Source: Phycisphaerae bacterium
GTDB lineage: Bacteria > Planctomycetota > Phycisphaerae > SM23-33
Assembly (NCBI GenBank): GCA_009783465.1
Contig: WRDM01000005.1
Coordinates: 1 to 64,000 of the forward strand
Direction of reading: 5' to 3'
Length of the DNA stretch: 64,000 nucleotides
The notes beneath the pieces were generated by a model. That model saw nothing but the letters and a program-made list of their open reading frames with translations. It ran no database searches and was not told the origin of the DNA. Below are positions 4,022-43,861 of the stretch, in pieces. Every line of letters begins with the position of its first letter. Position 1 is the stretch's first letter. A program made the translations under genes and the position numbers.

Positions 4022-7000
4022 TCAGAATCCCTGGAACGTTTTCTGCCAGGCCGCCTTCGCGTTGGCGATGGACACGTCGAGGACCGTTTTGTTCCCGTGT
4101 GTCATCGCGATTCTTCCGGTATCGGTCACTCTGCCGATTTCGCCGTGGGGGATGTTGGCGACGTGGCGGAGGAAGGCGTCGTAGCGGTCGGGGGCGACTT
4201 CGACGAGGAATCGGCCTGCGGATTCGTTGAACAGGGCGACGGCGGGGTCGAGGGTCGCGCCGCCCGCGGTGGGCAGGGCGTCGAGATTCAGGCTGACGCC
4301 GAGTCCGCCGGCGAAGGCCATTTCGGCGGCCGCGACGGCGAGTCCGCCTTCGGAGAGGTCGTGCGCCGCCCGCACCGCGCCGTCGGCGATGGCGGCCTGC
4401 AATGCCCGCATCCCGCGCAGGTTGGTGGGCATGTCGACGGGAGGCACGTCGGCGCCGCTGGCGAGGCCGTTGGCAAGCAGGTAGTGGCTGCCGCCCATTT
4501 CCGCGCCGGTTCGGCCCAGGATAAACAGGGTGTTTCCGGCGGACTTCGCGTCGGCGGTGACGCATCGGTTCACGTCGTCGATGACGCTGATGGCCGAGAT
4601 CAGCAGCGTCGGCGGAATGGCGATGGTTTGCCCGTCCTCGGTGACGAATTCGTTGTTGAGGCTGTCCTTGCCGGAGATGAACGGCACGGAGTACGCTTTG
4701 GCGGCGTCGTAGCAGGCCTTGGCCGACAGCAGGAGCGCGCCCATGCGGTCGGGCTTGTTGCAGTTGCCCCAGCAGAAGTTGTCGAGAATGGCGGTGCGTT
4801 CGAGGTCGCCGCCGACGGCGACGGCGTTGCGCAGGGCTTCGTCCACCGCGTGCAGGGCGGAGTTGTACGGATCGAGGTCGCCCAGCCGCGGATTCATGCC
4901 GCAGGAAACGACCACGCCTTTGCGGCTGCCCAGCACGGGGCGGATGACCGACGCGTCGCCGGGGCCGTCCTCGCCGATGCCCACCAGCGGCTTGATCGCG
5001 CTGCCACCTTGCACCTCGTGATCGTACTGCCGGATGATCCATTCCTTGCTGGCGACGTTGGGCTGCGAGAGCACGCCCAGCAGCGATTGATTGAGACTTG
5101 GCGTCTGGCGGGGCAGGGCGGTGCGGGCGTCGGACTGACGCCACCGCGCGTGCTTGGTCGGGCGGGGCAGCCCGCCGTGAAGGAAGCTCACGTCCAACTC
5201 GCCGACGAGCGTTTGGCCGTAAAACAGGCGTAGTTTACGTGACGCGGGCGTCTCGCCCGCGTTGTGCGTTCCATGAGTCTTGTCGGCGGAGGACGCTAAG
5301 CCGCCTTCGCCAGACGCGGGCAAGATGCCCGCGAGACACGAGGGCGAGCCGCCCTCGTCACGTGAGACGCCCGTGCTCCCGAACGTCCCGATCACCGTCG
5401 CTTCGACGTCCTCGCTCTGGAACAGCGCCAGGATGCGTTCGACGTTTTCCGGCGGGACGGAGAAGACCATGCGTTCCTGGGCTTCGCTGATCCAGATTTC
5501 GCTGTACGACAGGCCGGCGTATTTCAGCGGCACGCGGTCGAGGTGGACCGTCGCGCCGAGTTCCTCGCCCATCTCGCCGACGGCCGAACTCAGCCCGCCC
5601 GCGCCGCAGTCCGTCACCGCGGTGTACAGCCCCGCGTCGCGGGCCTGCACCATCGTGTCGAGCATCTTCTTTTCCGTGATCGCGTTGCCGATCTGCACGG
5701 CGTGGCTGAATTCGGTCTCGTGGCTGTGCGTCAGTTCGCCGCTGGAGAACGTCGCGCCGTGAATGCCGTCGCGCCCGGTCCGCCCGCCGACCACCACGAT
5801 CGCGTCGCCTTCGCCCACCTGCTTGAAGCATTTTTCGCGAGGCAGCACGCCCACCGTGCCGCAGAAGACCAGCGGATTGCCGAGATATCGGCTGTCGAAA
5901 TAGACGGCCCCGTTGACCGTCGGGATGCCCATGCGGTTGCCGTAATCGCGCACGCCCGCCACCACGCCGCGCATCACGCGACGCGGATGCAGCACGCCCT
6001 TGGGCACGTCGTCGGGCGGCATGTCGTTCGGGCCGAAACAAAACACGTCCGTGTTCGCCACCGGGCGGGCGCCCATGCCCGTGCCCATCGGGTCGCGAAT
6101 CACGCCGCCGATGCCCGTGCTCGCGCCGCCGTACGGCTCGATCGCCGAGGGATGATTGTGCGTCTCGACCTTGAAGCACACAGCCGTCTCCTCGTCGAAT
6201 TCGATCACGCCGGCGTTGTCCTTGAAGACGCTGATCGTCCAGGGCTTGGCCAATTCGCGCGTCGCGCGGAAGACGGTGTTTTTGATCAGATTCGGAATGA
6301 ACACATTCACCTGCCCCTTGTCGCCGGCGGGGGCGGCGAAGCGGAAAATTTCCTCGCCGTTCACGCGGAAGCGATACGACACGCCCGCGTCCTGCTCCAG
6401 CGTGCAGGTGACGTTGCAACGTGACGCGGGCGTCTCGCCCGCGTTGTGCGCTCCATTGGCCTGACCACTGGAAGATGTCAAGCCGTCTTCGCCATCCGCC
6501 GCGGGCAAGATGCCCGCGGGACGCGAGGGCGGGACGCCCGTGCCACGGTCCAGTGCCGCCAACACGGCGGTTTCCATGGCCCCCAGGTGAGTTTCCGCGT
6601 GCGTGCCCGCGTAGCCGGCGTTGGTCAGCAGCGAGGCCAACTCGGTTTTCAAACTCGCCCATTCCTCCGCCGACGCGACGGGCCAGGCCAATTCCCACTC
6701 GCCCGGCAGCGGCGTGCCCTCGTACCACACGTCGCTGCGGAAGGTTTTGTGGACGCAGTGTTCGCTCCAGGTCTGCGCGATCATTTCCAGTTCCACGTCG
6801 CGCGGCTCGCGGCCTAGCGAGCGGTAGTAGTCCTGAATCGCCTTCATTTCCGTGAGGTTGAGGAACAGGTGGCCGTTTTTGGAGAGCGTCGTCAGCCCGG
6901 CGTCGTCGAGGTCCAGGAGGGGCACCTCGGTGACGTGGAGCTGGTAGGAATGGCCTTGCATTTCCGCGGGGGTGTGGGCGTGGAAGTAGACGTCCTCGAT

Positions 7001-22149: not shown

Positions 22150-22398
22150 GTTCGAGGGAACAAAGCCACCAGCCACAAGCCACCAGGGCTTTCGGGACGC
22201 GATGGTGAAATCGTTCTTCTCGGTGGCGAGAGTGGTCTCAAGGCTTCGCAGACACGAAGATCGGTTGACACGCGAGTGGTTCACCGGCCTTGGAGTTTGC
22301 GAAGCCACGAGACCATTCTCTCGAACAAACGGATCATTTTTACATTTGCGCACCGAAAGCCCTGGTGGCTGGTGGCTAGTGGCTTTGTTCCCTCGAAC
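22150..22398. repeat. Family B palindrome with long loop
   Basis: Arms 22150-22194 and 22354-22398 are complementary over 45 bases with two mismatches. They start with GTTCGAGGGAACAAAGCCA. The 159-base loop contains GAGACCATTCTCTCGAAC, also found in the loop of the copy at 34933-35128. It fills the gap before the GT2-GT4 gene. Confidence 0.9.
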
Positions 22399-22435
22399 CG
22401 ACGACACGTTTTCACCAACAAGCAGGGAATATCTA

Positions 22436-24994
22436 ATGGCAACAATCATCCTGGCCGCGTTGACCTGGCTGGCGCTGGGCGTGCTGGCGTATGCGTACGT
22501 GGTGTATCCGTGGGTGGTGTCGGCGGCGGCCCGGCTGTGGGCGAAGCCTTGCGCCGCGGCGGACATCGAGCCAACCGTTACGCTGTTGATTCCCGCGCAC
22601 AACGAGGAGGCCGTCATCGAGGCGAAGATTCGCAACGCGCTGTCGTTGGATTATCCCGCGGGGAAGTTGCAGATTCGCGTCGTCAGCGACGGCAGCACGG
22701 ACTCCACCGACGCGGTCGCGCGGCGGTTTGCGCCCTCGGTGGAGTATCAGCGGATCAGTCCTCGCGGCGGCAAGCCCAACGCGGTGAATCAGGCGGTGCC
22801 GTTCGCGCGCGGGGAGATTTTGCTGTTGTGCGACGCCAACACGATGTTCGCCGCCGACGCGGTGCGGAGGCTGGTGCGGCATTTCGCGGATGAACGGGTC
22901 GGGGCGGTCAGCGGCGACGTTCGGCTGGCGAGCCAGACGGTGACGTACGGGCGGGGCGAAAGTTTGTTCTGGCGGCTGGAGCGGCGGATGCAGGCCGCCG
23001 AGGCCGCGTTGGGGTCAAGCATCGGTGTTGACGGCGGAATGTACGCGGTGCGGCGGTCGTTGTACGTGGCCAATCGGGTCGACACGCTGATTGACGATTT
23101 CGTGATCGCGATGAACGTGGCCAAGTCGGGCCGACGTGTGCTGCTGGACGGTTCGGCGTGGGCGACGGAGGACGCGGTGGCGGACCCGAGTCAGGAGTTT
23201 CGTCGGCGTGCGCGGACGGTGGCGGGCGGGTTCCAGACGTTGTTCGAGGGGCGAGGGCGGCCTGGGCTGCGGCGACCCGGCTTGTGGGCGGCGTACGTGT
23301 CGCACAAGGTGTTACGCTGGCTGGGCCCGGTGTGGTTGGCGGCGGCATTTGTCGGCTCGGCCGGCGCGGCGGTTTTGGGATGGCTTGCGGATTGGCCCAC
23401 GTGGCCGATTTATGCCGGTCTCGCGGCGGCGCAGATGTCGATGTACGCGCTGGCGGCGGCCGGCCATGCGATGCGACGCCGTCACCTGCCACGTCTGTTG
23501 TGCCTGCCGTATTATTTTTGTTTAGCCAACGCGGCGGCGGCGGCGGGGTTCTGGCGCTGGCTTCGCAAACGCCAACCCGTCACATGGGCACAGGCGGATC
23601 GTTCCGTGGCGACGACAACCGACGTGGTGGCCGAACGTGACGCGGGCGTCTCGCCCGCGTGTCTCGCGGGCATCTTGCCCGCGTCGGGCGGCGAAGTGAG
23701 GTTGATGTTTTCCAGTGGCCATGCCTATGGAACGCACAACGCGGGCGGGACGCCCGCGTCACGTTCGGCCCCAGCATCGGTCGCGATGCTGGTGACCAAT
23801 CGCGGGATTGACGATCCGCGCGTTCGGCTGGAAGCGGCGGCGTTGTGTGCGGCGGGGCGGTATCGCGTGACGGTGGTTGGGTGGGATCGCGACACGGACC
23901 GCGACATGCACGAGACGCGTGACGGCGTGGAGTTTCGCCGTCTGGCGTTGCGGTCCACGCATGCGCGGGGCGCGTGGCAGGCGGTGTTTCTTGGCGGGTT
24001 TTTCCTTCGCGCCTGGCCGCACCTGCGCGCCCTCAAGCCAGCGGCGATTCACTGTCACGACTTTGACACGCTGCCGCTGGGCTACGCGGCCGCGCGGACG
24101 TGGCGGGCGAAACTGGTCTTCGACGCGCACGAAAATTATCCCGACATGATGCTTGGCCATCTGCCCGACGCGCTGGTTGGGCGGCTGCGGCAGGCGGAGC
24201 GGTTTTTCGTGCCACGGGCGGATGCGTTGATCACGGTCGGCGGTCGGCTGGCGGAGTTTTATTCGCGGCTTGGCGCGCGTCGCGTGACGATCGTCGGCAA
24301 CTGGAAGGATGACGGCACGTATCGCATTTCGCCGTCGCGCCGGGCGGAGATTCGGCGGCGGCTGGGGCTGAATCACCACATCGCCATCGCGTACATCGCG
24401 GTGTTGGGGCGCGATCGCCATCTCGAGCCGCTGCTGCGGGCCGTCGCTGCCGACGAACGGTTCGCGTGCGTGATCGGCGGCGACGGGCACCTCGCGGGTG
24501 TGGCCGCCGCGTACGCCCGCGAGCATGCCAACGTGCGGTATCTCGGCGCGGTGCCCTCGGCGGACGTGCCCGCCCTGACGGCCTCGTGCGACGTCGTTTA
24601 TTACGGCATGGATCGCGACAATCCCAATTCGCGCTGGAGCGCGCCGAACAAATTGTACGAAGCCATCGCCGCCGGCATGCCGATGCTCGCGGGCGATTTC
24701 GGCGAGGTCGGTCCGACGATCCGACAGCACGGCTGCGGCGTGCTGGCCGCCACCGAATCCGCCGCCGCCGTCGCCGCCGCACTTGACCAACTCGCCGACC
24801 GCCACGCCCTGGCTTCCATGGCCCAGGCCGCCAAAGCACTCGCGCCACACTACTCCGCTACATCCGCACAAGCCGCCGTCGTCGACGCATACGATCGATT
24901 ATTTTCGTGGCATGTGGGTGAACAGAAACCTCCGGTTCAAGGGAACCAAGCCACTAGCCACCAGCCACTAGCCACCAGGGGTTGCGCCGCATGA
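22436..24994 (+). CDS. Fused glycosyltransferase: membrane GT2 joined to GT4 through a repeat-encoded linker
   Basis: 852 residues from ATG 22436; the frame continues upstream only through a repeat. Residues 1-395 are a processive-type GT2: an N-terminal helix (LALGVLAYAYVVYPWVV), LIPAHNEEAV, SDGSTDST, the DxD-like CDANTMF, GGMYAVRRSLY, EFRRRARTV and C-terminal helices. Residues about 400-443 are encoded by a family A repeat (AGILPASG, GTHNAGGTPASR). Residues about 446-825 are a complete GT4 (FDAHENYPDMM, then SAPNKLYEAIAAGMPML). The last 27 residues are encoded by a half family B element. It is either one bifunctional enzyme or two genes fused by repeat insertion. Overlaps the flippase gene by four bases. 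Confidence 0.85.
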   Translation: MATIILAALTWLALGVLAYAYVVYPWVVSAAARLWAKPCAAADIEPTVTLLIPAHNEEAVIEAKIRNALSLDYPAGKLQIRVVSDGSTDSTDAVARRFAPSVEYQRISPRGGKPNAVNQAVPFARGEILLLCDANTMFAADAVRRLVRHFADERVGAVSGDVRLASQTVTYGRGESLFWRLERRMQAAEAALGSSIGVDGGMYAVRRSLYVANRVDTLIDDFVIAMNVAKSGRRVLLDGSAWATEDAVADPSQEFRRRARTVAGGFQTLFEGRGRPGLRRPGLWAAYVSHKVLRWLGPVWLAAAFVGSAGAAVLGWLADWPTWPIYAGLAAAQMSMYALAAAGHAMRRRHLPRLLCLPYYFCLANAAAAAGFWRWLRKRQPVTWAQADRSVATTTDVVAERDAGVSPACLAGILPASGGEVRLMFSSGHAYGTHNAGGTPASRSAPASVAMLVTNRGIDDPRVRLEAAALCAAGRYRVTVVGWDRDTDRDMHETRDGVEFRRLALRSTHARGAWQAVFLGGFFLRAWPHLRALKPAAIHCHDFDTLPLGYAAARTWRAKLVFDAHENYPDMMLGHLPDALVGRLRQAERFFVPRADALITVGGRLAEFYSRLGARRVTIVGNWKDDGTYRISPSRRAEIRRRLGLNHHIAIAYIAVLGRDRHLEPLLRAVAADERFACVIGGDGHLAGVAAAYAREHANVRYLGAVPSADVPALTASCDVVYYGMDRDNPNSRWSAPNKLYEAIAAGMPMLAGDFGEVGPTIRQHGCGVLAATESAAAVAAALDQLADRHALASMAQAAKALAPHYSATSAQAAVVDAYDRLFSWHVGEQKPPVQGNQATSHQPLATRGCAA
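23635..23764. repeat. Family A repeat forming the GT2-GT4 linker
   Basis: A2 element read in frame, in the same orientation and frame as in purL. It joins two otherwise complete glycosyltransferase domains. Confidence 0.88.
24918..24980. repeat. Half family B element at the GT fusion / flippase junction
   Basis: Only the AGCCACT/AGCCACC heptamer arm is present, preceded by GGTTCAAGGGAACC. The right arm is missing. The GT fusion frame passes through it, using the frame that avoids its two TAG triplets, and ends 14 bases later. Confidence 0.8.
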
Positions 24995-29330: not shown

Positions 29331-30869
29331 ATGTTAGGAATTCGCGCCATCCTCATCGCGGTTGTCGGGCTGTCGGCCAGCGGGGCGTCGTTATTTCGGC
29401 CTTACTGGGGCATGCTGATGTTGGCGGTGTTGTATTTTTTTCGGCCTGACTTGTACGGCGCGGAGGAGTACGTCACGCCGGTGAAATGGCTGACGATCAG
29501 CGTGCTGCTGGGGTATTTGTTCACGGGCCTGTCGACGCGGAAGGGCCGTAGCACGGGCATCTTGCCCGTGAGTCGCACGGGCGTCTCGCCCATGCAAAGC
29601 GGCCTTGAAAACAACGTGTTGGAGTCGGCGCGAGCGGTAACGTCTTCGCGGCGCAGGGTTCCAGCCAACCGCAACCACGGGCGAGACGCCCGTGGGACTC
29701 ACGGGCAAGATGCCCGTGCTACGCCGGAGGGCGTATTCGCCGGCACGGGCTGGATGATGGTGATTTTGGGCGTGTATGTGGTATCGAGCATTTTCGCGCC
29801 GATGACGGACGCGGTCAGTTGGTCGCGGCTGTGGCTGATCGTGAAAATTTTCATCGCCGTGTTTTTGATCCAGAAGGTCTGCGACACGCCGGCCCGGCTG
29901 GCGGGGTTCGTGGCGGCGATGCTTCTGGGTTCGTGCTGGTTTCTCAAGGTGACGGTTGTCGGCTGGGCGGCGTACGGCTGGGGTGACGTTCGCATCGACG
30001 CGGCGGCGGGGCAGGGCGGCGGCGCCAACTACATCGCCTGGGTGCTCGCGGCGATGACGGGATTCGTGCTCTATAAGGTCGTCCGAGGCCGGGGGTGGCA
30101 GCGGTGGACGGCGGTCGTGCTGGTGCCTCTGTTCGTGGTCGGCAACATGGCGACGGGATCCCGTGGCGGGTTGTTGTGCCTGGTGGCCGCCGGCGTGACG
30201 TTTGTGCTGATGATGCGTCGCAAGTTGTGGCTGCTGTTGCCGGCGGGCGCGATCGGCGTGTGGCTGCTGGTGAGTCTGGCGCCCGCGTCGTACATGAATC
30301 GCATGGCCACCATCACCAGCGACCCGGCGAAGATGGACGCGTCGTCGTTGACGCGGTATCAGAACGTGCAGATCGGCAAGCGGATCATCGCCGATTATCC
30401 GGTGTTCGGCACGGGCCTGGAGACGTTCCCGCGGGCCAAGCGGGCGTATCTGACGCCCGAGTACGTTGGCGGGATGTATCACGTGGCCCACAACACGTTG
30501 ATTCAATTGGGCAGCGAGTGCGGCGTGCCGATGCTGATGGCGTTCGCGGGCGTGACGGGGCTGGCGACGTGGCGGCTGTTGCGGCGGCGGCCGATTGCCG
30601 ACGCCGTCGCCGACGACCACATGGAATGGCTTCGGATCGGCACGCTGTGCGCGTTGGCGGCGACGTGGGCGGAGATGATCAAGGGCGACGTGGCCCACAT
30701 GGACGTGTTCTGGTGGTTCTACGGTTTGGCGTTTGCGTACCATCGGGTCAGCCGGCGGTGGGCGAGTGGCGGTGGCGGGCGTCGTAGCACGGGCATCTTG
30801 CCCGTGCGTCGCATGGGCGTCTCGTCCATGCAGAGCGGCCTTGGAAATGGAGCGTTGAAGTTGGCGTGA
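29331..30869 (+). CDS. O-antigen polymerase/ligase-like membrane protein (Wzy type) with two repeat-encoded segments
   Basis: 512 residues from ATG 29331 (MLGIRAILIAVVGLSASG). About ten transmembrane helices. The family signature region is the large loop and C-terminal half (ATGSRGGLLCLVAAGV, VFGTGLETFPRAKR, HNTLIQLGSECGVPML), as in Wzy_C/exosortase-linked polymerases. Residues about 73-131 (STGILPVSRTGVSP, GRDARGTHGQDARAT) are a family A1 insertion between two helices. The last 28 residues are another A1 copy that also covers the gap to the next gene. It would polymerise or ligate the exported repeat units. Confidence 0.85.
   Translation: MLGIRAILIAVVGLSASGASLFRPYWGMLMLAVLYFFRPDLYGAEEYVTPVKWLTISVLLGYLFTGLSTRKGRSTGILPVSRTGVSPMQSGLENNVLESARAVTSSRRRVPANRNHGRDARGTHGQDARATPEGVFAGTGWMMVILGVYVVSSIFAPMTDAVSWSRLWLIVKIFIAVFLIQKVCDTPARLAGFVAAMLLGSCWFLKVTVVGWAAYGWGDVRIDAAAGQGGGANYIAWVLAAMTGFVLYKVVRGRGWQRWTAVVLVPLFVVGNMATGSRGGLLCLVAAGVTFVLMMRRKLWLLLPAGAIGVWLLVSLAPASYMNRMATITSDPAKMDASSLTRYQNVQIGKRIIADYPVFGTGLETFPRAKRAYLTPEYVGGMYHVAHNTLIQLGSECGVPMLMAFAGVTGLATWRLLRRRPIADAVADDHMEWLRIGTLCALAATWAEMIKGDVAHMDVFWWFYGLAFAYHRVSRRWASGGGGRRSTGILPVRRMGVSSMQSGLGNGALKLA
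29548..29723. repeat. Family A1 repeat inside the first polymerase gene
   Basis: Begins CGTAGCACGGGCATCTTGCC and ends GCAAGATGCCCGTGCTACG. The loop (GCGGCCTTGAAA and on) resembles those at 30783 and 36562. Read in frame with no stop. Confidence 0.88.
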
Positions 30870-30960
30870 GCGGGCCGTAGTTTCGTTGAGCAAAATTTTT
30901 GCCAGCCTCACCACGGGCGAGACGCCCGTGGGACTCACGGGCAAGATGCCCGTGCTACAT
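30783..30960. repeat. Family A1 repeat spanning the polymerase end and next gene's leader
   Basis: Left arm encodes the polymerase C terminus; the loop holds its TGA stop. The right arm ends CAAGATGCCCGTGCTACATG, 22 bases before the next start. Confidence 0.88.
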
Positions 30961-30982
30961 GGAAGAACTGGGGAGACATGAC

Positions 30983-32377
30983 ATGGTCGACATGCGGACG
31001 ATGTTGTCCAGGGCGGTGATGAACGGCGTGATCAGTCGCGTGGGGCGTGGATTTACTGCGCAGGTGCGGCGTGAGTTGCGGGCGTTTGGCCGCGCGCAAT
31101 GGCGGCCTTACGCGCAGTTGCGGGAACTGCAACTGGAGGGCGTGAATCGGTTGTTGTCGCATTGCGTCCGCACCGTGCCGTACTATCGGCGGATGCACGT
31201 GCAGGGGCTGCTGCCCGACCGCATCGGTCGGCTGGAGGAGCTGTCGCAGGTGCCGACGCTGAGCAAGGAGACGCTGGTCGCGCAAGGCGAGGAGTTCGTG
31301 TCGTCGACGGTGGCGCCCGGCGCGCTGCTGCCGCGTCGCAGCGGCGGATCGACGGGTGAGCCGCTGCATTTTTTCATCACGCCGCACGCGGCGGCGGTGA
31401 TGGCGGCGTGCGAGCACTACGGCAATTCGCTCGCGGGGCATTGCGTGGGCGATCCCATCGCGACGCTGTGGGGGTCGCGGTTCGACAACGCGCCGCCGAC
31501 GTTTCGTCAGCGGGCGGCCCGATATTTGTCGAACATCACGCAGTGCGTCGTGGATCGCATGGACGAGGCGGTGTGTCGCGACATCGTGCGGCGGTTGGAG
31601 CGACAGAAACCGACGGTGCTGGTGGGCTACACGGCGGCGTTGATGGAGATGGCGGCGTTTCTCGAAGATCGTGGGCTTCGTCCGAATTTTCCGAAGCGGA
31701 GTGTGATTTCCGCGGCCGAGCCGCTCACGCCGTCGCAGCGGCAGACGCTCGAGCGCGTATTTGGTCGCTCCGTGTTCAACCGCTACGGCACGCGCGAGGT
31801 CGGCCTGGTGGCGATGGAATGTTCCTATCACCGGGGCCTGCACCTGAACGGCCACTCGCTGTACGTGGAGTTCGAGCCGGTCGCAGGCTTGGGCGACGCG
31901 CGGCGAGTGATTGTCACCAAGTTGTTTGAGATGGGCATGCCGTTCATCCGCTACGACCTGGGCGACTACATCCTCGGCGACGTCTCCGCCTGTCCGTGTG
32001 GGCGGGGCTTTCCGATCATCCAAGCCGTGCGAGGCCGCGTGGTGTCGAACCTGCGCCTGCCTAACGGCGCGTTCATCGCGCCGGAGGTGTTCATCGTGTT
32101 ACTGGACCGCCAGTCGGTGCGGGAGTACCGCGTCGTGCAGGCGGCGGATTATTCGGCTCGCGTGGAGATCGTGCCAGGCCCGCACTGGGACGACACGATG
32201 GCGCAGCACGTGTTGCGAACGCTGCACGGCGTCACGCTGGGCTTGGTGGAATTTCGGATCGAACTGCGCGAACGGGTCGAGCGCACGCCGTCGGGCAAAC
32301 TATTGCCGATCGTCAGCCACGTGCCCTCGCCAGTGGAAACGGCGCCGCTGGCATGGGAAGCGATCCGCGCGGCGTGA
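30983..32377 (+). CDS. PaaK/CapK-like adenylate-forming enzyme
   Basis: 464 residues from ATG 30983 (MVDMRTMLSRAVM), with GGGGAG nearby; ATG at 30992 is an alternative. Family motifs: P-loop-like RRSGGSTGEPLHFFI, aromatic YGTREVGLVAMEC, and RYDLGDYILGDVSAC with CPCGRGFP (possible metal site), all as in phenylacetate-CoA ligase and capsule CapK proteins. In polysaccharide clusters CapK-like proteins are common, and their acyl-activating substrate is generally unknown. It lies between the polymerase and CapA, so modification of the polysaccharide with an acid is a fair guess. Confidence 0.85.
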   Translation: MVDMRTMLSRAVMNGVISRVGRGFTAQVRRELRAFGRAQWRPYAQLRELQLEGVNRLLSHCVRTVPYYRRMHVQGLLPDRIGRLEELSQVPTLSKETLVAQGEEFVSSTVAPGALLPRRSGGSTGEPLHFFITPHAAAVMAACEHYGNSLAGHCVGDPIATLWGSRFDNAPPTFRQRAARYLSNITQCVVDRMDEAVCRDIVRRLERQKPTVLVGYTAALMEMAAFLEDRGLRPNFPKRSVISAAEPLTPSQRQTLERVFGRSVFNRYGTREVGLVAMECSYHRGLHLNGHSLYVEFEPVAGLGDARRVIVTKLFEMGMPFIRYDLGDYILGDVSACPCGRGFPIIQAVRGRVVSNLRLPNGAFIAPEVFIVLLDRQSVREYRVVQAADYSARVEIVPGPHWDDTMAQHVLRTLHGVTLGLVEFRIELRERVERTPSGKLLPIVSHVPSPVETAPLAWEAIRAA

Positions 32378-32384
32378 GGAAACG

Positions 32385-32556
32385 AGCCAGTAGCCAATAG
32401 CCAGTAGCCAATAGGTACGGAACGGTATTGGCGAAAAGACAACAAAAGCGGGAATGACTATGGAAGGATTGCGAAATCATGATCGGATGAATTGTGACAA
32501 GATTGGCCATACCTGATGGCTATTGGCTACTGGCTATTGGCTTGGTTCCCTCGGGC
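32385..32556. repeat. Family B palindrome with short loop
   Basis: Left arm AGCCAGT/AGCCAAT heptamers with GGTACGG. Right arm 32506-32556 has CCATACCTGATGGCTATTGG and ends GGTTCCCTCGGGC. The loop has GGCGAAAAGACAACAAAAGC, matching the other short-loop copies. It fills the gap before the CapA gene. Confidence 0.9.
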
Positions 32557-32576
32557 AAACGACGATAAAGGTGGGA

Positions 32577-33752
32577 ATGTTGTTGGGGAAATTGACATTT
32601 GTCGGCGACTGTATGCCAGGCCGGCTGGTGGGGCGGTCGTTGGAGCGGATGGGTTTGTCGGCGTCGGCGCGGCGTGTGCGGGCGTCGGCGCGCGGCGCGG
32701 AGGATGCATCTTCGCCGCGCGCGGTGGTCGTGGCGAATCTGGAGTGTGCGTTGGACGCCGCCGGGCCCGCAAGGCCTTACAAGGACGACGGCGGGCCGAA
32801 TCTGCACGCGTCACCGGCGATGGCGGATTGGCTGCGGCAGGCGGGGGTTGACGTGCTGGTGTTGGCCAACAATCACGCGGGCGATTGCGGGCGGGCGGGG
32901 ATTGTATCGACGTGTCGGGCGATCCGTTCGGCGGGGCTGGCGTGCGTTGGCGCGGGGGATGATTACGACCGCGCCATCGCGCCGTTGGTGGTGCGGGCGG
33001 GCGACGCGCGGGTGGCGATCGTGGCGGTCGGCAACGGGCTGGCGGCGGACGGCGGTCGGCCTGGTGTGAGTCCGCTTCGCACGGCGACGTTGCGGCAGGC
33101 GTTGGCCCGCGTGGAGAGCGATGTGGACGCGACCGTCGTTGTGCTGCACGGAGGCATCGAGTTTCTGTCGACGCCCGAGTCGTGGCTGCGCGACCTGGCC
33201 GCCGAGGCGGTGCGCGGCGGCGCGGATCTGGTGGTCGGCGGACATCCGCATTGCCTTCGCGGCTTGGCGAGTGTCGGCGGCAGGCCCGTGTTTTACAGCC
33301 TGGGCGATTTTCTGGCGGACACGCGGCACGAGGCGACGTTGGCGGATCACGTGCGGCGGACGGCGTTGACGGCGTTGGGGTTCGGCGTGGCGGATCCGTC
33401 GGTGTGCCGCTGGTCGATGGCGTTGGACGTGACGGTCCAGTCGCGGCGTCGGCTGACGTGGAGCGTCCGGCCGCTGGTGATCGACGAGGATTTTCTGCCG
33501 CGTCCAGCCACGCCGCAGGAGTCGACGGAATTCGATCGACGGATGGCGGCGTTGTGCGAGGCCGCGAGCGGGCAGGACCGCGCCGCCCTGCGGTTCGTCC
33601 GCGCGGTGGAAAAAGCGTACGCCCGCCGCTACGGCACCGGCCGCACAACACGCCAATGGCTGACGCTGCCGTTCCGCGTGCGAGGCCGGCATTTACGTTC
33701 GCTATGGCGCCGCGCGCGGGAGTTGGTGGGAACAACAGGCTGTAGGCTGTAG
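32577..33752 (+). CDS. CapA-family poly-gamma-glutamate synthesis-type protein
   Basis: 391 residues from ATG 32577 (MLLGKLTFVGDCMPGR). Metallophosphatase-like motifs of the PGA_cap family: FVGDCMPG, NLECAL, LANNHAGDCG, LHGGIEF, GGHPHCLRG and FYSLGDFLAD. CapA proteins occur in capsule and exopolysaccharide clusters; their biochemical activity is not firmly known. No signal peptide, so it is probably cytoplasmic or peripheral. The last residues (GCRL) and the TAG stop are provided by a family D repeat, so the native end may have been changed. Confidence 0.88.
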   Translation: MLLGKLTFVGDCMPGRLVGRSLERMGLSASARRVRASARGAEDASSPRAVVVANLECALDAAGPARPYKDDGGPNLHASPAMADWLRQAGVDVLVLANNHAGDCGRAGIVSTCRAIRSAGLACVGAGDDYDRAIAPLVVRAGDARVAIVAVGNGLAADGGRPGVSPLRTATLRQALARVESDVDATVVVLHGGIEFLSTPESWLRDLAAEAVRGGADLVVGGHPHCLRGLASVGGRPVFYSLGDFLADTRHEATLADHVRRTALTALGFGVADPSVCRWSMALDVTVQSRRRLTWSVRPLVIDEDFLPRPATPQESTEFDRRMAALCEAASGQDRAALRFVRAVEKAYARRYGTGRTTRQWLTLPFRVRGRHLRSLWRRARELVGTTGCRL

Positions 33753-33802
33753 GTCGATGGTACGGCAGGCGTGTCGCGCCTACAGCCTACGGCCCACAGC
33801 CT
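33737..33802. repeat. Family D palindrome overlapping the CapA stop
   Basis: Left arm is the heptamer GGCTGTA repeated. The right arm has GCCTACAGCCTACGGCCCAC. TAG falls at each unit junction, and the CapA stop is one of these. Confidence 0.9.
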
Positions 33803-33840
33803 GCCGCCGATGATTGCAATTTGGAGTTGGGGGTAAACCG

Positions 33841-34956
33841 ATGACAACCGAAGAACCGCTTCACGTCATGCATGTGTTGCCGCAGTTGGGTGCGGGCGGC
33901 ATTGAGTTGGCGTTGGCGCGCGTGCTGACGGAGTGGCCGCTGTGCGAGATGCGGCATACGGTCGTGGCGGTGCGGGGCGAGAATCTCATCGTCGACCGCC
34001 TGCCGCCGCGCGTACGCGTGTGCCTGTTGCGGGCCAGGCCCAACGAACTGCGGGCGGGATGGCGGCTGCGGAATCTCATCGCCGCCGTCCGACCCGACGT
34101 GATTCATGCGCGGAATTTCGGCGGTTGGGACGTGGCTGTGCTGGCGCGCGGGTTGTCGTGGCGGCGCGTGCCGCTGGTGTACAGTTTTCATGGCCTGAGC
34201 GAGCCGAATCCGCCTCGGCGGCGGCGATGGATCAGTCGGCTGTTGGCGCAATTCACCGCCGGGCTGTTCACGGTGACCCGCGACACGCGCGATGCGCTGG
34301 CGGACGAGCTCCACCTGCCGCCGCGACGAATCGCCGTGATTCCCAACGGCGTTCGCACGCCGCCGCGATTGGCCGTGCCCGGCGGACGCGGGCCGTTCAC
34401 CGTCGGCACGGTCGGCAATCTCACGTCCGTGAAAAACCACGACCTGCTGCTGCGGGCGTTTGCGACATTTCGCCAGGCTGCCCCCGCGGTCGACGCCCAA
34501 CTGCGTCTCGCGGGCGACGGGCCTTTGCGGGGCGAACTCCAGGGGCGCGCGAGGCAACTGGGCATCGCGCCACGCTGCCAGTTCGTCGGGCGAATCCACG
34601 CCGTGGGCGATTTCCTGGCCGAGCTGGACGTCTTCGCGTTGCCCAGTCGGAGCGAGGCGCATCCGAATGCGTTGCTGGAGGCGATGGCGGCGGGGCTGCC
34701 GTGCGTGGCGACGGCCGTCGGCGGCGTGCCGGAAGTCCTCGGCGCGGGCCGATGCGGCCTGCTCGTACCCGCCGGCGACGCCGACGCGCTGGCCCGCGCG
34801 CTGCTCGACCTGGCCGCCAACCCCGCCGAACGCCGCCGACTCGGCGAGGCCGCCTGGCAACGCGCCGCCGAAACGTACAGCCTGGAAGGCATGGCGCGGG
34901 CGTATGCGGATCTGTATAGGAAAACGGCGGAAAAGCCAGTAGCCAATAGCCAGTAG
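33841..34956 (+). CDS. Glycosyltransferase family 4
   Basis: 371 residues, typical GT4 size. The first domain has HVMHVLPQLGAGGIELALAR and VYSFHGLSEPNPP. The second has VGTVGNLTSVKNHDLLLRAF, LAGDGPLRGELQ and the E-x7-E motif SRSEAHPNALLEAMAAG. It belongs to the WaaG/PimA-like GT4 group acting on lipid-linked or polymeric sugars; the sugar is unknown. ATG at 33841 is preferred over 33814, which lies near the family D repeat. The stop is a TAG within the family B array, giving the end VANSQ. Confidence 0.9.
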   Translation: MTTEEPLHVMHVLPQLGAGGIELALARVLTEWPLCEMRHTVVAVRGENLIVDRLPPRVRVCLLRARPNELRAGWRLRNLIAAVRPDVIHARNFGGWDVAVLARGLSWRRVPLVYSFHGLSEPNPPRRRRWISRLLAQFTAGLFTVTRDTRDALADELHLPPRRIAVIPNGVRTPPRLAVPGGRGPFTVGTVGNLTSVKNHDLLLRAFATFRQAAPAVDAQLRLAGDGPLRGELQGRARQLGIAPRCQFVGRIHAVGDFLAELDVFALPSRSEAHPNALLEAMAAGLPCVATAVGGVPEVLGAGRCGLLVPAGDADALARALLDLAANPAERRRLGEAAWQRAAETYSLEGMARAYADLYRKTAEKPVANSQ

Positions 34957-35128
34957 CCAATAGGTATGGAAAGGCCTGTCATAAACCAGAACATACTGCC
35001 GGTGTGACGATGAAACAGAACATTAAGTCTGCGAAGCCGCGAGACCATTCTCTCGAACGAGAGTCTTGTGTTTACCAAAACGTAACGAAAATCCTATTGG
35101 CTACTGGCTGTTGGCTATTGGCTTTTCA
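34933..35128. repeat. Family B palindrome with long loop, overlapping a GT4 stop
   Basis: Left arm AGCCAGT/AGCCAAT heptamers (34933-34973). Right arm 35090-35128 reads CTATTGGCTACTGGCTGTTG. The loop has ATGAAACAGAACATTAAG and GAGACCATTCTCTCGAAC, shared with copies at 29097 and 22150. Confidence 0.9.
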
Positions 35129-35176
35129 CCCCTGGAGACCACAACCCGAATACGAATGACTTTCGGAGATCCAACC

Positions 35177-36388
35177 ATGAGCCTTTTCGTTCCTCGCATT
35201 CTCGTGTTGACGCAGATGTTTCCCAACAGCGCGTATCCGCATCGCGGCAGTTTTGTCAGCGAACGGGTTCGCGTCCTTTGCGACGACGCGGAGATTCGCG
35301 TGATCAATCCGGTGCCGTATTTTCCGCCCGTGCCGGGCCTGGGCCGATACAGTCGGCTGGCGCGCGTCGGGCTTCGCGGCGAGACGTCCGAGGGCTGTCA
35401 CGTGCTGCATCCGCGGTACGCGGTGCTGCCGAGGGTGGCGACGTTTTATCAAGGCCTGTCGATGGCCCGCGCGGTCCGGCGGCAGTGCGAGCGCGACCCG
35501 TGGAAGCCTGACATCATCGACGCCCACTTCGCCTTCCCCGACGGCTACGCCGCGGTTCGATTGGGGCGGGAGTTGGGTTGCCCGGTCGTCGTGACCTGTC
35601 ATGGCAGCGACCTGGCGACGTATCCGCGACGGTTTGGCGTGCGGCGGATGATGCGATGGACGATGACGCATGCCACGCGCGTGCTGGCCGTCGCGCCGCA
35701 TCTGCGGGAGGCGGCGCTCCAACTTGGCGGCGCGCCGCACCACGTCGAGGTGCTGCCCGGCGGCGTGGATTGCGACATCTTTTTCCCGCGAAACCGCCTG
35801 CGATGCCGCACGAATCTGGGCCTGCCGATCGACCGCCCCGTGGCGCTTTGCGTGGCCGGGCTTGACGATAACAAAAACCAGGCTGTGCTTTTGCATGCCC
35901 TGGCCGAGGTGATCCGTCGAGGCGGCAAGTTGCATCTGGCGTTGGTTGGCGACGGGCCGACGCGGGCATCGCTGGAGAAGCAGGCCGCCGAATTGGGCGT
36001 TACGGAGTGCGTGACGCTGGCCGGGTCGAGGCCTTACGTCGAGGTGCCGCAATGGATCTCGGCGGCGGACTGGCTGGTGTTGGCCAGCCGTCGCGAGGGT
36101 TGGCCGACGGTGTACTGCGAGGCGATGGCGTGCGGCAGGCCGGTGCTGACCGCGAACGTCGCCGTCGCGCGGACGGCCATCGACCGCGACGAACTCGGCA
36201 TGGTGCTGGACGAAAATTCGCCGCGCGCGTGGGCCGACGCCTTCGAAGCCGCCCGCGCGCGAAAGTGGGACGAGCAGGCCATCCGCCGGCTGGCGCTGAA
36301 TCACAGTTGGAAACAATGGGCGTCGCATTACCTCGCGCTGGTCCGCGAGGTGCTGGGACGCCGCCAAATCATCGGAGCCGCCGCATGA
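35177..36388 (+). CDS. Glycosyltransferase family 4
   Basis: 403 residues from ATG 35177 (MSLFVPRILVLTQMFPN), with GGAG upstream; the frame before it is repeat. N-terminal domain: RGSFVSERVRVL, YFPPVPGLGRY, DAHFAFPDGYAAVRLGREL, TCHGSDLATYP. Donor domain: LPGGVDCDIFFP, LDDNKNQAVLLHALAE, LVGDGPTRASLE, REGWPTVYCEAMACGRPVL. This resembles GT4 enzymes of teichuronic or exopolysaccharide synthesis (TuaC-like). Its stop overlaps the start of the FemAB gene (ATGA). Confidence 0.9.
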   Translation: MSLFVPRILVLTQMFPNSAYPHRGSFVSERVRVLCDDAEIRVINPVPYFPPVPGLGRYSRLARVGLRGETSEGCHVLHPRYAVLPRVATFYQGLSMARAVRRQCERDPWKPDIIDAHFAFPDGYAAVRLGRELGCPVVVTCHGSDLATYPRRFGVRRMMRWTMTHATRVLAVAPHLREAALQLGGAPHHVEVLPGGVDCDIFFPRNRLRCRTNLGLPIDRPVALCVAGLDDNKNQAVLLHALAEVIRRGGKLHLALVGDGPTRASLEKQAAELGVTECVTLAGSRPYVEVPQWISAADWLVLASRREGWPTVYCEAMACGRPVLTANVAVARTAIDRDELGMVLDENSPRAWADAFEAARARKWDEQAIRRLALNHSWKQWASHYLALVREVLGRRQIIGAAA

Positions 36389-37608
36389 ACGACACCACCG
36401 CAACGGAACGGACGATTCGCTGCCGCGTGGACGACGATCCGCCGGCGGACTGGGCCGACTACGTGCTTCGACACGCCGATGCCACCGTGTTTCACGACCC
36501 GCGATGGGCGACGCTCATGCGCGACGTCTACGGCAACGCGTGCTTTTACCTCACTGCGCGGCGTAGCACGGGCGTCCCGCCCGTGAGTCGCATGGGCGTC
36601 TCGCCCATGCATCGTGGCCTTGAAAGGAGCGCTTTGGAGTCAACACGGGCGGCAACGTCGCGACATGAGAATCCAGCCAATCACACCACGGGCGAGACGC
36701 CCGTGGGACTCATGGGCGAGACGCCCATGCTACGGTCTGAACGATGCGTCGGCGTGCTCGCGCTGGTGCTTCAGCGCAGTTGGCTGATGGGCGACCGGCT
36801 GTGCAGCCTGCCGTACCTCGACGCCAGCGGCGTGCTTGCCGACGACGACACCGCGGCGGCGGCCCTGCTGAGCCAGGCCTGCGACGTGATGCGCGAACGC
36901 CACGCCAAGTGGATCGAACTCCGCCAGGAGCATCCGCTGGGCGACCTGCCCACGCGGAACGACAAGCTCACGATGCGGCTGGCGCTGCCGGCGGGACAGG
37001 CTGAGCTGATGGAAAATTTTCGTGGCAAAACGCGGAACCAGATCCGCAAGGCGTTGAGCGTCGGCATGACCGCCGACGTCGGCGGGCCCGAGCGGCTGGC
37101 GGATTTTCACCACGTGTACGAGCGGACGATGCGCGATCTGGGCAGCCCGCCGCACAGCCTGGAATTTTTCCGCCGGCTGATGGAAACGTTCGGCCGTCAG
37201 GCGGGCGTGCACACGATCCGCGACGGCCAGCGGCTGGTGGGGGCCTCGCTGGTTCTGGAGGACGCCCGCCGCGTCTACGTGCCGTGGTCCGGCAGCGACT
37301 GGCGGCACGGCAGCGGGCAGGCCAACACGATGCTGTTCTGGTCGATGCTCGCCGCGTGCAGCGACCGCGGCGTGAAGGAGTTCGACTTCGGCCGAAGCAC
37401 GCGCGGCGGCGGCACGCACGTCTTCAAACAAAAATGGGGCGCCGCCGAAGTGCCACTGCACTGGCACTACATCCTCCGCCCCGGCCAATCGCCGCCCACG
37501 CCGCACCTCGACACCGGCGTACTGAAACTGGCGGGCACGTGCTGGCGAAAACTGCCGATCTGCGCCGTTCGCGTCCTGGGGCCGAGGATTATTCGGAAAG
37601 TGTCCTAG
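36385..37608 (+). CDS. FemAB-like acyltransferase (exosortase-associated type) with repeat insertion
   Basis: 407 residues from ATG 36385. The fold is GNAT-like FemAB: FHDPRWATLMRDVYGN at the start, then MGDRLCSLPYLDASGVL, ENFRGKTRNQIRKALSVGM, TIRDGQRLVGASLVLED and VKEFDFGRSTRGGGTHVFKQ in the second half. Relatives occur in exosortase/PEP-CTERM polysaccharide clusters and probably transfer amino acids to a polymer or lipid precursor, though no exosortase is in the window. Residues about 60-116 (STGVPPVSRMGVSP, then TTGETPVGLMGETPM) are a family A1 insertion interrupting the N-terminal domain. Confidence 0.85.
   Translation: MNDTTATERTIRCRVDDDPPADWADYVLRHADATVFHDPRWATLMRDVYGNACFYLTARRSTGVPPVSRMGVSPMHRGLERSALESTRAATSRHENPANHTTGETPVGLMGETPMLRSERCVGVLALVLQRSWLMGDRLCSLPYLDASGVLADDDTAAAALLSQACDVMRERHAKWIELRQEHPLGDLPTRNDKLTMRLALPAGQAELMENFRGKTRNQIRKALSVGMTADVGGPERLADFHHVYERTMRDLGSPPHSLEFFRRLMETFGRQAGVHTIRDGQRLVGASLVLEDARRVYVPWSGSDWRHGSGQANTMLFWSMLAACSDRGVKEFDFGRSTRGGGTHVFKQKWGAAEVPLHWHYILRPGQSPPTPHLDTGVLKLAGTCWRKLPICAVRVLGPRIIRKVS
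36562..36733. repeat. Family A1 repeat inside the FemAB-like gene
   Basis: Arms with CGTAGCACGGGCGTCCCGCC and GAGACGCCCATGCTACGG. Loop GTGGCCTTGAAAGGAGCG resembles the loops in the polymerase gene copies. In frame, no stop. Confidence 0.88.
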
Positions 37609-37623
37609 AGGCGCTCGGGTGAA

Positions 37624-37742
37624 TGTTTTCAGCGGCTTGCCTCTTTGCGCTGTAGGATGATCCTGTCTCCGAACAGACGCACGTTTCGTCGATGAGATCG
37701 TTCTGCAGCGCAAAGAGGCAAGCCCTTGCGAAACGTTTTGCG
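37624..37742. repeat. Family C palindrome between FemAB and sugar kinase genes
   Basis: TGTTTTCAGCGGCTTGCCTC and its complement GAGGCAAGCCCTTGCGAAACG with the CTTTGCGCTGTAGG core. The loop has GCACGTTTCGTCGATGAG. Confidence 0.85.
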
Positions 37743-37776
37743 TAACACATCGTTTTCCGGTACGCTGGCACGCACT

Positions 37777-39165
37777 ATGGATCAATCGGTTGAGAGCGTG
37801 GTGGCGGGGCATATTTGTTTGGATGTCACGCCGGCGTTTCGTGTCGGCGGGCGGAGCGTTGGCGACATCCTTCGCCCGGGCTGCCTGGTGCAGGTGGGCG
37901 GGGCGGTCGTGTCCACCGGCGGGCCTGTGTCCAACACGGGCTTCCCGATGCGACGCATGGGTGTCAACGTGCGGCTGATGGGCAAATGCGGCGACGACAT
38001 GTTCGGGCGGGCGCTGCTGGAGAAAATCCGGGCCGAGGCCCCCGGTGCCGAGAGCGGCATGCGCATCGTTCCCGGCGAAGAGACCAGCTACACCGTCGTG
38101 GTGAATCCGCCGGGAATCGACCGCATTTTTCTGCACTGCCACGGCGCGAATGACACCTTCGCCGCCGCCGACATCGACCTGGCCACCGTCGCGCAGGCCA
38201 GGCTGTTCCACTTCGGCTACCCGCCGCTGATGGCCCGCATGTACGGCGACGGCGGACGCGAACTCGTCGAAATCTTCCGACAGGTCAAAGCCACCGGCGC
38301 GACGACGAGCCTCGACATGGCCTATCCCGACCCGCGAAGCCCCGCCGGGGCGGCCGACTGGACGTCCATTCTGGAACGCACGTTGCCGTTCGTCGACGTG
38401 TTCACGCCCAGCGTGGAGGAGTTGATCTTCATGCTGCGGCGGGAAAAATTTGACGAACTGTCCGCCAGGGCGGGCGACCTCGACCTCGAACTGCTCTCGC
38501 TGATCGACGGCGAGTTGCTGAGCGACCTCGGCCAACAGTGTTTGAAAATGGGCGCCGCCGTGGTGTTGATCAAGTGCGGCTGGTACGGCATGTACATCGC
38601 GTCGGCGGGCGCGGAGCGGTTCGCGCGCGGCGTCGGTCGAGGAATGAACGCGTCGTCAGCCGCGAGTAGCACGGGCGTCCCGCCCGTGAGTCGCATGGGC
38701 GTCTCGCCCATGCAAACGTTGCCAACAGAACAGACTTCCACGTTACGGCAGGATGCAAACGAACCGGCTACGCCATGCGACCACCACGGGCAAGATGCCC
38801 GTGGGACTCACGGGCGAGACGCCCGTGCTACGGGCGCCGCGTCGTGGATTGGCCGGGAGTTGTTCGAGCCGGGCTATCGCGTGGAGAACGTGGTCAGCGC
38901 GACGGGCGCCGGCGACTGCGCGATCGCGGCCTTCCTCACCAGTTGCCTCCGCGACTGCCGCCTGGAAGACGCCGTGCGCAACGCCTGCGCCGTCGGCGCG
39001 CAGAACGTCACCGTCGCCGATACCATCAGCGGCGTCAAAACCTGGGAACAAACGTTAGCCCAGGTGGCCAGCCGGCCGGAGAAATACCAGGTTCCGCTGC
39101 CGTTGATAAGATTCCGTTACGATGAAGCCGAAGAACACTACGTCGGCCCCAACGATAAACGGTAG
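37777..39165 (+). CDS. PfkB-family carbohydrate kinase with repeat insertion
   Basis: 462 residues from ATG 37777 (MDQSVESVVAGHICLD). Ribokinase-fold markers: VGGAVVSTGGPVSNTG, KCGDDMFGRALLEKI, SYTVVVNPPGIDRIF, FTPSVEELIFML, VLIKCGWYGMYI and the catalytic DTGAGD-like signature ATGAGDCAIAAFLTS. It phosphorylates a sugar or sugar acid; relatives act on ribose, fructose or keto-deoxygluconate, so the substrate is open. Residues about 297-352 (STGVPPVSRMGVSP, GQDARGTHGRDARAT) are a family A1 insertion just before the nucleotide-binding part; without it the length is near 405. Confidence 0.9.
   Translation: MDQSVESVVAGHICLDVTPAFRVGGRSVGDILRPGCLVQVGGAVVSTGGPVSNTGFPMRRMGVNVRLMGKCGDDMFGRALLEKIRAEAPGAESGMRIVPGEETSYTVVVNPPGIDRIFLHCHGANDTFAAADIDLATVAQARLFHFGYPPLMARMYGDGGRELVEIFRQVKATGATTSLDMAYPDPRSPAGAADWTSILERTLPFVDVFTPSVEELIFMLRREKFDELSARAGDLDLELLSLIDGELLSDLGQQCLKMGAAVVLIKCGWYGMYIASAGAERFARGVGRGMNASSAASSTGVPPVSRMGVSPMQTLPTEQTSTLRQDANEPATPCDHHGQDARGTHGRDARATGAASWIGRELFEPGYRVENVVSATGAGDCAIAAFLTSCLRDCRLEDAVRNACAVGAQNVTVADTISGVKTWEQTLAQVASRPEKYQVPLPLIRFRYDEAEEHYVGPNDKR
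38667..38832. repeat. Family A1 repeat inside the sugar kinase gene
   Basis: Arms GTAGCACGGGCGTCCCGCCC and GAGACGCCCGTGCTACGG. The loop has ACAGAACAGACTTCC. Read in frame. Confidence 0.88.
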
Positions 39166-39244
39166 TCGCGAGTTACGGCACGATAGCAACGTTACATGGA
39201 AGTGAATGGGCTGGCCTTCCCGGTCTCGCACGGAATCGCCGGGC

Positions 39245-39551
39245 CACAGCCCCAACGGGGCGTCTTGGGTAGCCCAGGGTGAGCGGTACTCCGCGAACCC
39301 TGGGTCGCGTGTTTTTCGGAGTTCATTGATCGTGCCTGACGCCACTGGCCGAGGTCGCGCACGCGGGCCTGTGTGGCTTCGGACGACGCGTACAAGGGAA
39401 CGTGCGAGTCGTTCGATGCCGCCTTCACGCGACGGTGCGCCATCGGCCAGTGGCGTCAGGCACGATGGGGAGAAGAAAAAAGGCCTTTGTTCCCAGGGTT
39501 CGCGGCGTACCGCTCACCCTGGGCTACCCAAGACGCCCCGTTGGGGCTGTG
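39245..39551. repeat. Family E double palindrome with 60-base outer arms
   Basis: Outer arms 39245-39304 and 39492-39551 are complementary over 60 bases with one mismatch. Inner arms 39329-39352 and 39443-39466 are exactly complementary over 24 bases. It fills most of the 39166-39644 gap between convergent genes. Read as protein it gives YRSPWATQDAPLG, but there is no real gene here. Confidence 0.93.
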
Positions 39552-39644
39552 TGCCGGCACTTCATCGCGAGGCTGGGGAGGCCGCTCTGCTCTTTTCCAT
39601 GCCCCGATGCTATCGTGTCCGAATTCCGCGAAATCCCGTCGTTT

Positions 39645-40625
39645 TCACCGATAGATCCACAGCATCGGCGGCAGCACCACGAGTAAATACAGGATGGTGT
39701 TGGTGATGAACAGCGCGCTGGCTTCGGCGGGGCGGAGATTGAACATGTTGGTCAGGGCGACCGCGGTGACGGCCGTCGAGACGCACGATTGAATGATCGC
39801 CACCGACAGCGTTTGCCCCTGGATCGGCCAGGGGGTCAGCCACGTCACGCCGATCAGCAGCAGGCCGGTCGCCAGCCCCAGCGCGAACCGCGTGCACGCC
39901 AGGCCCGCGATCAGTCCGCGCAGCTTCGGCACGTGCGAAACCTGCAATCGCAGGCCGATGGAAAAATAGGCCGAGATGTTGATGGCGTACACGAGCACGT
40001 CGACGACGTGGAGCTCGTCCACCGCCGTAGGGATGGGCACGCGTCCCAGCGACAGCCCCACGCCCGCCAGGCTGATCGGCAGCGCCAGGCTCCGCCAGTC
40101 CGTCAGGCTTTTGAGTAACAGCCGGCCCAGTGATTGCGTCGGTCCGTGCGAGCCGTAGTGCCTCGCGACCGGATAGCCCAGCAGCACCACGATGGTCGGG
40201 AAGAGCAGGAAAAACAGGCTGGCCAGGCCCAGCGCGGCATCGCCGAACAGGATGAAAATGACGAACCCGCCCATCGTCAGCCCGTTGTTGCCGAACGCGC
40301 TGAGCAGCACAAACGCGCCCCGCTCGCCGCGGTCCTTCGTCAGCCTGCCCGCGATCGGGGCCGACAACGCCGCCAGCATCATCACCTGCACGCATGCCAT
40401 CAACGGCAGCCAGAGATGTTCCCATTCCAACTGAATTTTCCAGATCGCCAGCAGGCTGACCGACGGATATCCCAGCACGGTAATCACGGTCATCAACGCG
40501 TTGGCGGACCGGTCGCCCGCCAGTCGAAATCGTCTGGCCAGGTACCCAGCCGACATCGACAGCAAAATCACCGCGAAAATGGGGACGAATTTTTCCACGC
40601 CGGACAGGATACTCGGGAACGGCAA
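39645..40625 (-). CDS. AEC-family permease (auxin efflux carrier-like)
   Basis: 326 residues with about ten transmembrane helices, the normal size. Family features: an N-terminal half with VPIFAVILLSMSAGYLARRF and LGYPSVSLLAIWKIQ, a central soluble loop (HYGSHGPTQSLGRLLLKS), then a second half with LALPISLAGVGLSLGR and the Asn/Pro-rich helices typical of BASS/AEC transporters (FGNNGLTMGGFVIFIL). It probably moves small organic acids or amino acids across the inner membrane; the substrate cannot be inferred. It is transcribed opposite to both neighbours and isolated by repeats on both sides. Confidence 0.85.
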   Translation of the reverse strand: MPFPSILSGVEKFVPIFAVILLSMSAGYLARRFRLAGDRSANALMTVITVLGYPSVSLLAIWKIQLEWEHLWLPLMACVQVMMLAALSAPIAGRLTKDRGERGAFVLLSAFGNNGLTMGGFVIFILFGDAALGLASLFFLLFPTIVVLLGYPVARHYGSHGPTQSLGRLLLKSLTDWRSLALPISLAGVGLSLGRVPIPTAVDELHVVDVLVYAINISAYFSIGLRLQVSHVPKLRGLIAGLACTRFALGLATGLLLIGVTWLTPWPIQGQTLSVAIIQSCVSTAVTAVALTNMFNLRPAEASALFITNTILYLLVVLPPMLWIYR

Positions 40626-40636
40626 ATGTTTTCAAC

Positions 40637-40859
40637 GGCTTGCCTCTTTGCGCTGTGGGACATTCCAGGCGCCAAGCGTTACATTTTTCGACTTCGTAAA
40701 AACCGAGCAGGATTACACGGATTGAAGGATTCAAGGATTGCCGTATGGAACGCGAAATCTTTTCATCCGTTAATCCGCGTAATCCCGCTCGGTCTTTACG
40801 AAGTCGGACTGGTGCTTAATGGGCGACAGGATCACCCTACAGCGCAAACAGGCAGAGCC
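40637..40859. repeat. Composite palindrome: family P nested in family C, second copy
   Basis: Outer arms GGCTTGCCTCTTTGCGCTGT (40637) and CCTACAGCGCAAACAGGC (to 40859). Inner palindrome 40689-40806 with arms CGACTTCGTAAAAACCGAGC and GCTCGGTCTTTACGAAGTCG. Same architecture as 10783-11006. It fills most of the 40626-41002 gap. Confidence 0.88.
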
Positions 40860-40990
40860 ATATCCACGCGTACTCAACAAATTCGCTCCGCATGAAATGG
40901 CAATGAAAAAAGCCCAATCTGCGCCTTCGGCCTTCGGTCTATAGACTCCCCGCCCCGCATGCCGATATAGTTTCAACAGAGATACGCGCG

Positions 40991-40996
40991 AAGGAG
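40991..40996 (+). promoter_or_regulatory. Ribosome binding site deciding the GTG start of the phosphohexomutase
   Basis: AAGGAG six bases before GTG 41003. No ATG in this frame is as well placed; ATG at 41018 is too far. Confidence 0.6.
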
Positions 40997-41002
40997 ACCT
41001 CC

Positions 41003-42424: not shown

Positions 42425-42441
42425 CTTTCGTGTGACCTTTA

Positions 42442-43828: not shown

Positions 43829-43861
43829 GGGGTTTCCTGTTCTCGTGGCGTGAACGAACGA

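Follow-up and report, generated by a model that had tools for sequence, protein, structure and literature searches.

The window, which is the whole 64,000-nt stretch of DNA analysed here, comes from a 2.48-Mb MAG that is 69.6% complete. Within it, one open frame runs from the ATG at 22436 to a stop codon ending at 24994, and would encode a protein of 852 residues. The parts of this frame, together with the repeat lying immediately upstream, are the following:

22362 to 22432, minus strand: inverted copy of the tail repeat, directly 5' of the GT2 start (inverted pair I18, 71 nt, 76%).
22436 to 23634, plus strand: membrane GT2 half (PF00535/PF13641), whose conserved part extends to about residue 391; standalone homologues end at about 385-397.
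23635 to 23764, plus strand: palindromic coding element ACGTGACG...CGTCACGT, the linker, residues 400-443 (from the genome copies, the copy alignment, the frame analysis and the fold).
23765 to 24907, plus strand: complete GT4 half (PF13579/PF00534) without a start of the ancestral type, 53-56% identical to the standalone genes of the genus g8.
24901 to 24994, plus strand: repeat-derived C-terminal tail (HVGEQKPPVQGNQATSHQPLATRGCAA) and stop codon; inverted copy of 22362-22432 and weak member of repeat family D4.

In the 852-residue frame, the Pfam matches were Glycos_transf_2 (PF00535) at residues 50-208, Glyco_tranf_2_3 (PF13641) at 46-260, Glyco_trans_4_4 (PF13579) at 462-623 and Glycos_transf_1 (PF00534) at 638-798. 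Both the N- and C-terminal domains of the GT4 are thus present (PF13579 plus PF00534, residues 462-798). As regards the GT2, the alignment revealed the conserved motifs DGSTDST, DANT, DDF and RRRAR, and hydrophobic segments occupy residues 4-30 and 296-317. The open frame, the Pfam domains and the limits of homology all agree with the preliminary description of this DNA, which had proposed a complete membrane GT2 and a complete GT4 joined by the repeat at 23635-23764. It had also considered the C-terminal end to be repeat-derived, and this was borne out: since the homology to GT4 proteins stops at approximately residue 823, and positions 24901-24971 are an inverted copy (71 nt, 76% identity) of 22362-22432, just 5' of the GT2 start, the last ~30 residues come from a repeat family other than that of the linker element.

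Both halves, whose separate existence in related genomes had been suggested as a check, were indeed found as genes of their own. Standalone GT2 homologues (30-44% identity) are present in many other families of the class and mostly end with a short tail past a conserved W, at query residues ~385-397, leaving a gap of a few residues to the element. Standalone genes with 53-56% identity to the GT4 occur in 4 of 4 genomes of the sister genus g8, and others in G076 (51%) and G214 (42%). Because the alignments with the g8 GT4 proteins start at query residue 443-446, immediately past the element, and the GT2 homologues end at ~385-397, the element constitutes almost the whole linker. The g8 GT4 locus also has homologues of the window's Wzc-like, kinase and Wzx-like genes and is a partly matching exopolysaccharide locus; in the pieces of it that were read, no GT2 homologue was detected.

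The linker element is 130 bp long and belongs to a multicopy, palindromic family of ~100-136 bp, with a predicted RNA fold of -105 kcal/mol (z -10). About 40 long copies, 77-87% identical to the one at 23635-23764, are present in the assembly. We took 42 copies with their flanks from the genome itself and assigned the coding frame on each side using a codon-usage model trained on the genome's long ORFs. Both flanks were clear in 25 copies: in 20 they were in the same frame without a stop and in 2 in the same frame with stops, in the remaining 3 they shared the strand but not the frame, and no copy had its flanks on opposite strands. The 22 same-frame copies out of 25, against an expected one third, correspond to a binomial P of about 2e-8. 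When host ORFs that have domains on at least one side of the element are counted, approximately 30 of the 42 copies are genic and in frame in coding ORFs. The hosts include PurL and FeoB (two copies each), MnmE, QueG, a Mur ligase, an SNF2 helicase, MetW, TrkH, a poly(A)-polymerase-type enzyme and a DHquinase/shikimate dehydrogenase. Further copies lie elsewhere in the window:

5237 to 5363, minus strand: copy in PurL, in frame; the site is empty in relatives, with a net gain of 43 codons.
6418 to 6550, minus strand: second copy in the same PurL ORF, in frame.
47744 to 47838, plus strand: shorter copy, in frame; the host ORF carries an O-antigen ligase (Wzy_C) domain.

Almost every coding copy uses one frame of the element, RDAGVSPA..AGILPASG...GTHNAGETPASR; the reversed element reads RDAGVSPAL...DAGKMPA.HEGETPASR, and the general peptide, of about 43-44 residues, is RDAGVSPA...GETPASR. 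In the fused frame, the linker peptide includes the stretches after WAQADR and before SAPASVAMLVTNR. A second forward frame is also open in 20 of the 34 full-length copies. Most length variants (97, 100, 124, 127, 130, 133 and 136 bp) differ by multiples of three, a rule that is broken by the apparently intergenic L082 copy. With the frame kept, stops avoided and lengths mostly differing by multiples of three, the possibility that the element is spliced out or bypassed is disfavoured. At the base of the hairpin, where REP/RAYT-type repeats have a GTAG or CGTC tag, the element reads GCGTCACGT on the right and ACGTGACGC on the left, and a half site resembling GTAGCACGGGCGTC comes before several copies. 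Note that a related repeat family starting with CGTAGCACGGGC... recurs between genes at 29547-46220 of the window (families D1-D3), and that a half copy of this family precedes several coding copies of the element. As in other coding palindromes, a short, palindromic and multicopy sequence is found in frame in unrelated genes, and from these sequence comparisons we consider the element to be a coding palindrome of the RPE or intragenic-REP kind.

Two Y1_Tnp matches were obtained in the genome. The valS frame (L111:2-2827, minus strand, G000:C1) contains both a RAYT/Y1_Tnp transposase, in frame at residues ~222-455, and a 130-bp element, at residues 657-701. This transposase carries an HVH motif, is similar to TnpA-REP 4er8 and is flanked by 48-nt inverted arms that match, with 96% identity, the left end of the 130-bp element of the same gene. 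Thus, valS contains what is expected of a REP/RAYT-type system, a RAYT gene flanked by the same repeats, and the shared ends suggest that the RAYT moves the element. Even with both inserts in it, the first part of valS reaches 692.6 bits, above the cut-off of 612.1. This is the only valS found in the genome, and it is split over two contigs, one of which, C30, holds the C-terminal part. The other RAYT-like transposase (87.8 bits; L110, around G000:C23:13560-13904, minus strand) is flanked by a different pair of inverted repeats, of 69 nt, and the genome may thus contain more than one RAYT/repeat system.

The best-known selfish palindromes that lie in frame are those of Rickettsia. A review (PMC10969869) presents these Rickettsia palindromic elements (RPE; Ogata et al. 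2000, 2002) as in-frame palindromes in protein genes; as far as that review describes them, they share with our element a palindrome of ~100-150 bp, many copies, an in-frame location in unrelated genes and a conserved encoded peptide. The planctomycete element differs from the RPE in its phylum and, apparently, its sequence, in having a RAYT-bearing relative and in the copies placed exactly between elsewhere-separate enzymes; the likeness drawn here concerns the way of working only. The intragenic GTAG/CGTC REP repeats (Di Nocera et al. 2013, PMC3733652), which reach their highest numbers in Opitutus terrae and R. conorii, are also similar, since they are REP-like hairpins found as dimers or clusters in coding regions, with a proposed link to RAYT and with tRNA synthetases among their hosts. 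However, these REPs are mostly intergenic, whereas the copies fetched here are mostly genic, use one reading frame and form a composite unit of ~130 bp. Neither gene-junction linkers made from such palindromes nor a RAYT in frame within valS was found in the limited range of literature searched. The element is a further, heavily genic example of an in-frame palindrome, in Planctomycetota, and the genome appears to carry several dozen of them in conserved enzymes, including the valyl-tRNA synthetase that also holds a transposase.

Two samples of the class (298 and 397 genomes) and one of the phylum (392 genomes) were searched, and none of the hits was a GT2-GT4 fusion; the long frames in other classes were inspected one by one for this architecture. 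A conserved bifunctional enzyme would be expected to have fused orthologues elsewhere, and none was found in these samples; fused orthologues with unrelated linkers, which had been named as counter-evidence to a fusion made by the element, were thus not found, and among the genomes searched the fusion was seen in this one only. The candidates proved to be other proteins: in L166, a GT4 follows a spurious G+C-rich upstream frame, whereas L170 is a tandem GT2-GT2, L168 a GT2 with a second GT2, and L169 a GT2 with a Bac_transf sugar transferase. L168, L169 and L170 do have a membrane GT2 extended C-terminally by a neighbouring enzyme, as in the window, but no palindromic element was noticed in their linkers and the partner is not a GT4. 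Homologous GT2s thus do become joined to adjacent enzymes at this end in the absence of the element. In L170 (G719:C53), the two tandem membrane GT2 genes form one 808-residue frame, and they are separate in G479 and G666.

The insert is absent from PurL, MnmE and FeoB of relatives, and the Thermus ValRS is gapped at both valS insert positions. Counted between conserved flanks, the 127-bp copies in PurL and MnmE add exactly 43 codons, which is the element length plus 2 nt; by this rule, a 130-bp copy would add 132 nt. Since exactly 43 codons were gained in both genes, insertion of the element is frame-neutral, and an insertion of this kind is unable to abolish a stop codon on its own. Note that the PurL site (5237-5363; L136, L137) is a hot spot, where the relatives G021 and G006 carry different inserts, one of which reads TGFQPV...TGCKPVP.

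The element is also present at other gene junctions of the same genome. In the DUF1638-element-hydantoinase frame (L084:1821-4826, plus strand, G000:C24) it lies within the linker of the fusion, and in the relatives G025 and G014 the DUF1638 and hydantoinase parts are fused by ordinary linkers that lack it. This rules out that the element made the DUF1638-hydantoinase fusion; here, the fusion came first and the element second. Where a FecCD gene meets an ABC-ATPase gene, the element shares the frame of the downstream gene, and the gene upstream keeps its stop. Finally, ActC and ActD, which are separate chains in the solved alternative complex III, are joined in one ActC-element-ActD frame (L080:1734-4976, plus strand, G000:C2), with ActC homology up to residue 867, the element at 871-915 and ActD homology from 917, which places the element at the boundary. 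In 1.7 Mb of the sister genome G007 there was no ActC match, and the ActC-ActD junction keeps element-driven fusion as a live rival. At least two copies of the element lie precisely where two enzymes meet that occur elsewhere as separate proteins, a testable system to learn how mobile repeats add loops and linkers to proteins, and whether multidomain enzymes arise with their help.

Our results suggest that the locus most likely encodes a single GT2-GT4 chain, the linker being a translated mobile coding palindrome of the REP/RAYT type. As for the order of events, we lean, with modest confidence, towards a chain in which the GT2 stop was lost first and the element inserted second. In this lineage, two co-oriented exopolysaccharide genes would have become one when the GT2 stop was lost in an ordinary way, by a short deletion or a frameshift where the genes closely adjoined; the element would then have entered the short linker frame-neutrally, and would have been tolerated there. 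When 129 or 132 nt are removed at the linker, GT2 and GT4 remain in one frame (...DVVAESAPASVAMLVTN or ...DVVAAAPASVAMLVTN). The preliminary description had instead proposed that the element fused the two enzymes by removing a stop codon. Of this proposal, the separate existence of the halves elsewhere and the nature of the linker, a mobile palindrome, hold; the removal of the stop is not supported, given the insertions of exactly 43 codons, the frame that stays open after a deletion of 129 or 132 nt, and the DUF1638-hydantoinase proteins fused without the element. Thus, the element alone probably did not remove the stop codon. Fusion before insertion predicts an element-free GT2-GT4 fusion in close relatives, and none was found, the own genus being represented by one genome in the set searched. 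The location of the element exactly at the gene boundary, both here and between ActC and ActD, is a further point against this order.

It is possible, though rather unlikely in our opinion, that the element made the fusion, either by recombination of two copies deleting the stop or by irregular insertion at overlapping genes. If copies had been present at the GT2 end and before the GT4, recombination between them would have eliminated the stop and the intervening DNA, leaving one copy as the joint; alternatively, an insertion that was not a multiple of three would have shifted the GT2 past its own stop and into the GT4 frame. A linker that is nearly all element, a GT4 that is standalone in the related g8 loci, the absence of element-free GT2-GT4 fusions from the sampled genomes and the second joint made precisely at a boundary, that of ActC and ActD, are in line with such an origin. 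Moreover, when 130 or 131 nt are removed at the linker, the GT2 ends at a stop a few codons into the GT4, and with 130 nt removed this would be a TGA overlapping the GT4 ATG at 23786, a common operon layout. Against this, the measured insertions are frame-neutral and the linker copy has the usual 130-bp length, the parallel DUF1638-hydantoinase linker was fused before the element arrived, and no second copy or remnant was seen at the GT2/GT4 junction. The more general proposal that this palindrome fuses genes repeatedly, turning operon neighbours (GT2 and GT4, ActC and ActD) into single chains by insertion or recombination and staying behind as their ready-made linker, is likewise doubtful.

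Finally, a functional fused protein might not exist at all, the GT4 being translated alone from an internal start, or the frame resulting from faulty assembly or sequencing of a MAG that is rich in repeats. There are in-frame starts at 23696, 23702, 23705 and 23786, G+C-rich DNA often has long stop-free frames, the fused frame is also open 5' of the GT2 start, and the MAG is incomplete. However, since there is no stop between the halves, translation of the GT2 must continue into the GT4. Furthermore, the g8 GT4 genes have a GTG start with GAGG before it, whereas inspection of the sequence found nothing GAGG-like preceding the ATG at 23786 of the fused frame, and the same element family is in frame in valS and purL, genes expected to be essential or important. 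The linker copy is at least 13% different from every other copy; as no other copy in the assembly exceeds 87% identity to it, a misassembly through the repeat is unlikely, although the MAG is 69.6% complete. We therefore regard the lack of a fused protein as improbable, and infer that the fused chain is made. In this chain, the membrane-anchored GT2 would tether the GT4 via a ~45-residue, probably unstructured linker, and the two enzymes would act in one exopolysaccharide pathway. This last proposal is based on the neighbouring proteins, whose matches exceed the cut-off of a tyrosine autokinase model for polysaccharide biosynthesis and stay below the cut-offs of XrtA-type models for chain-length and kinase proteins.
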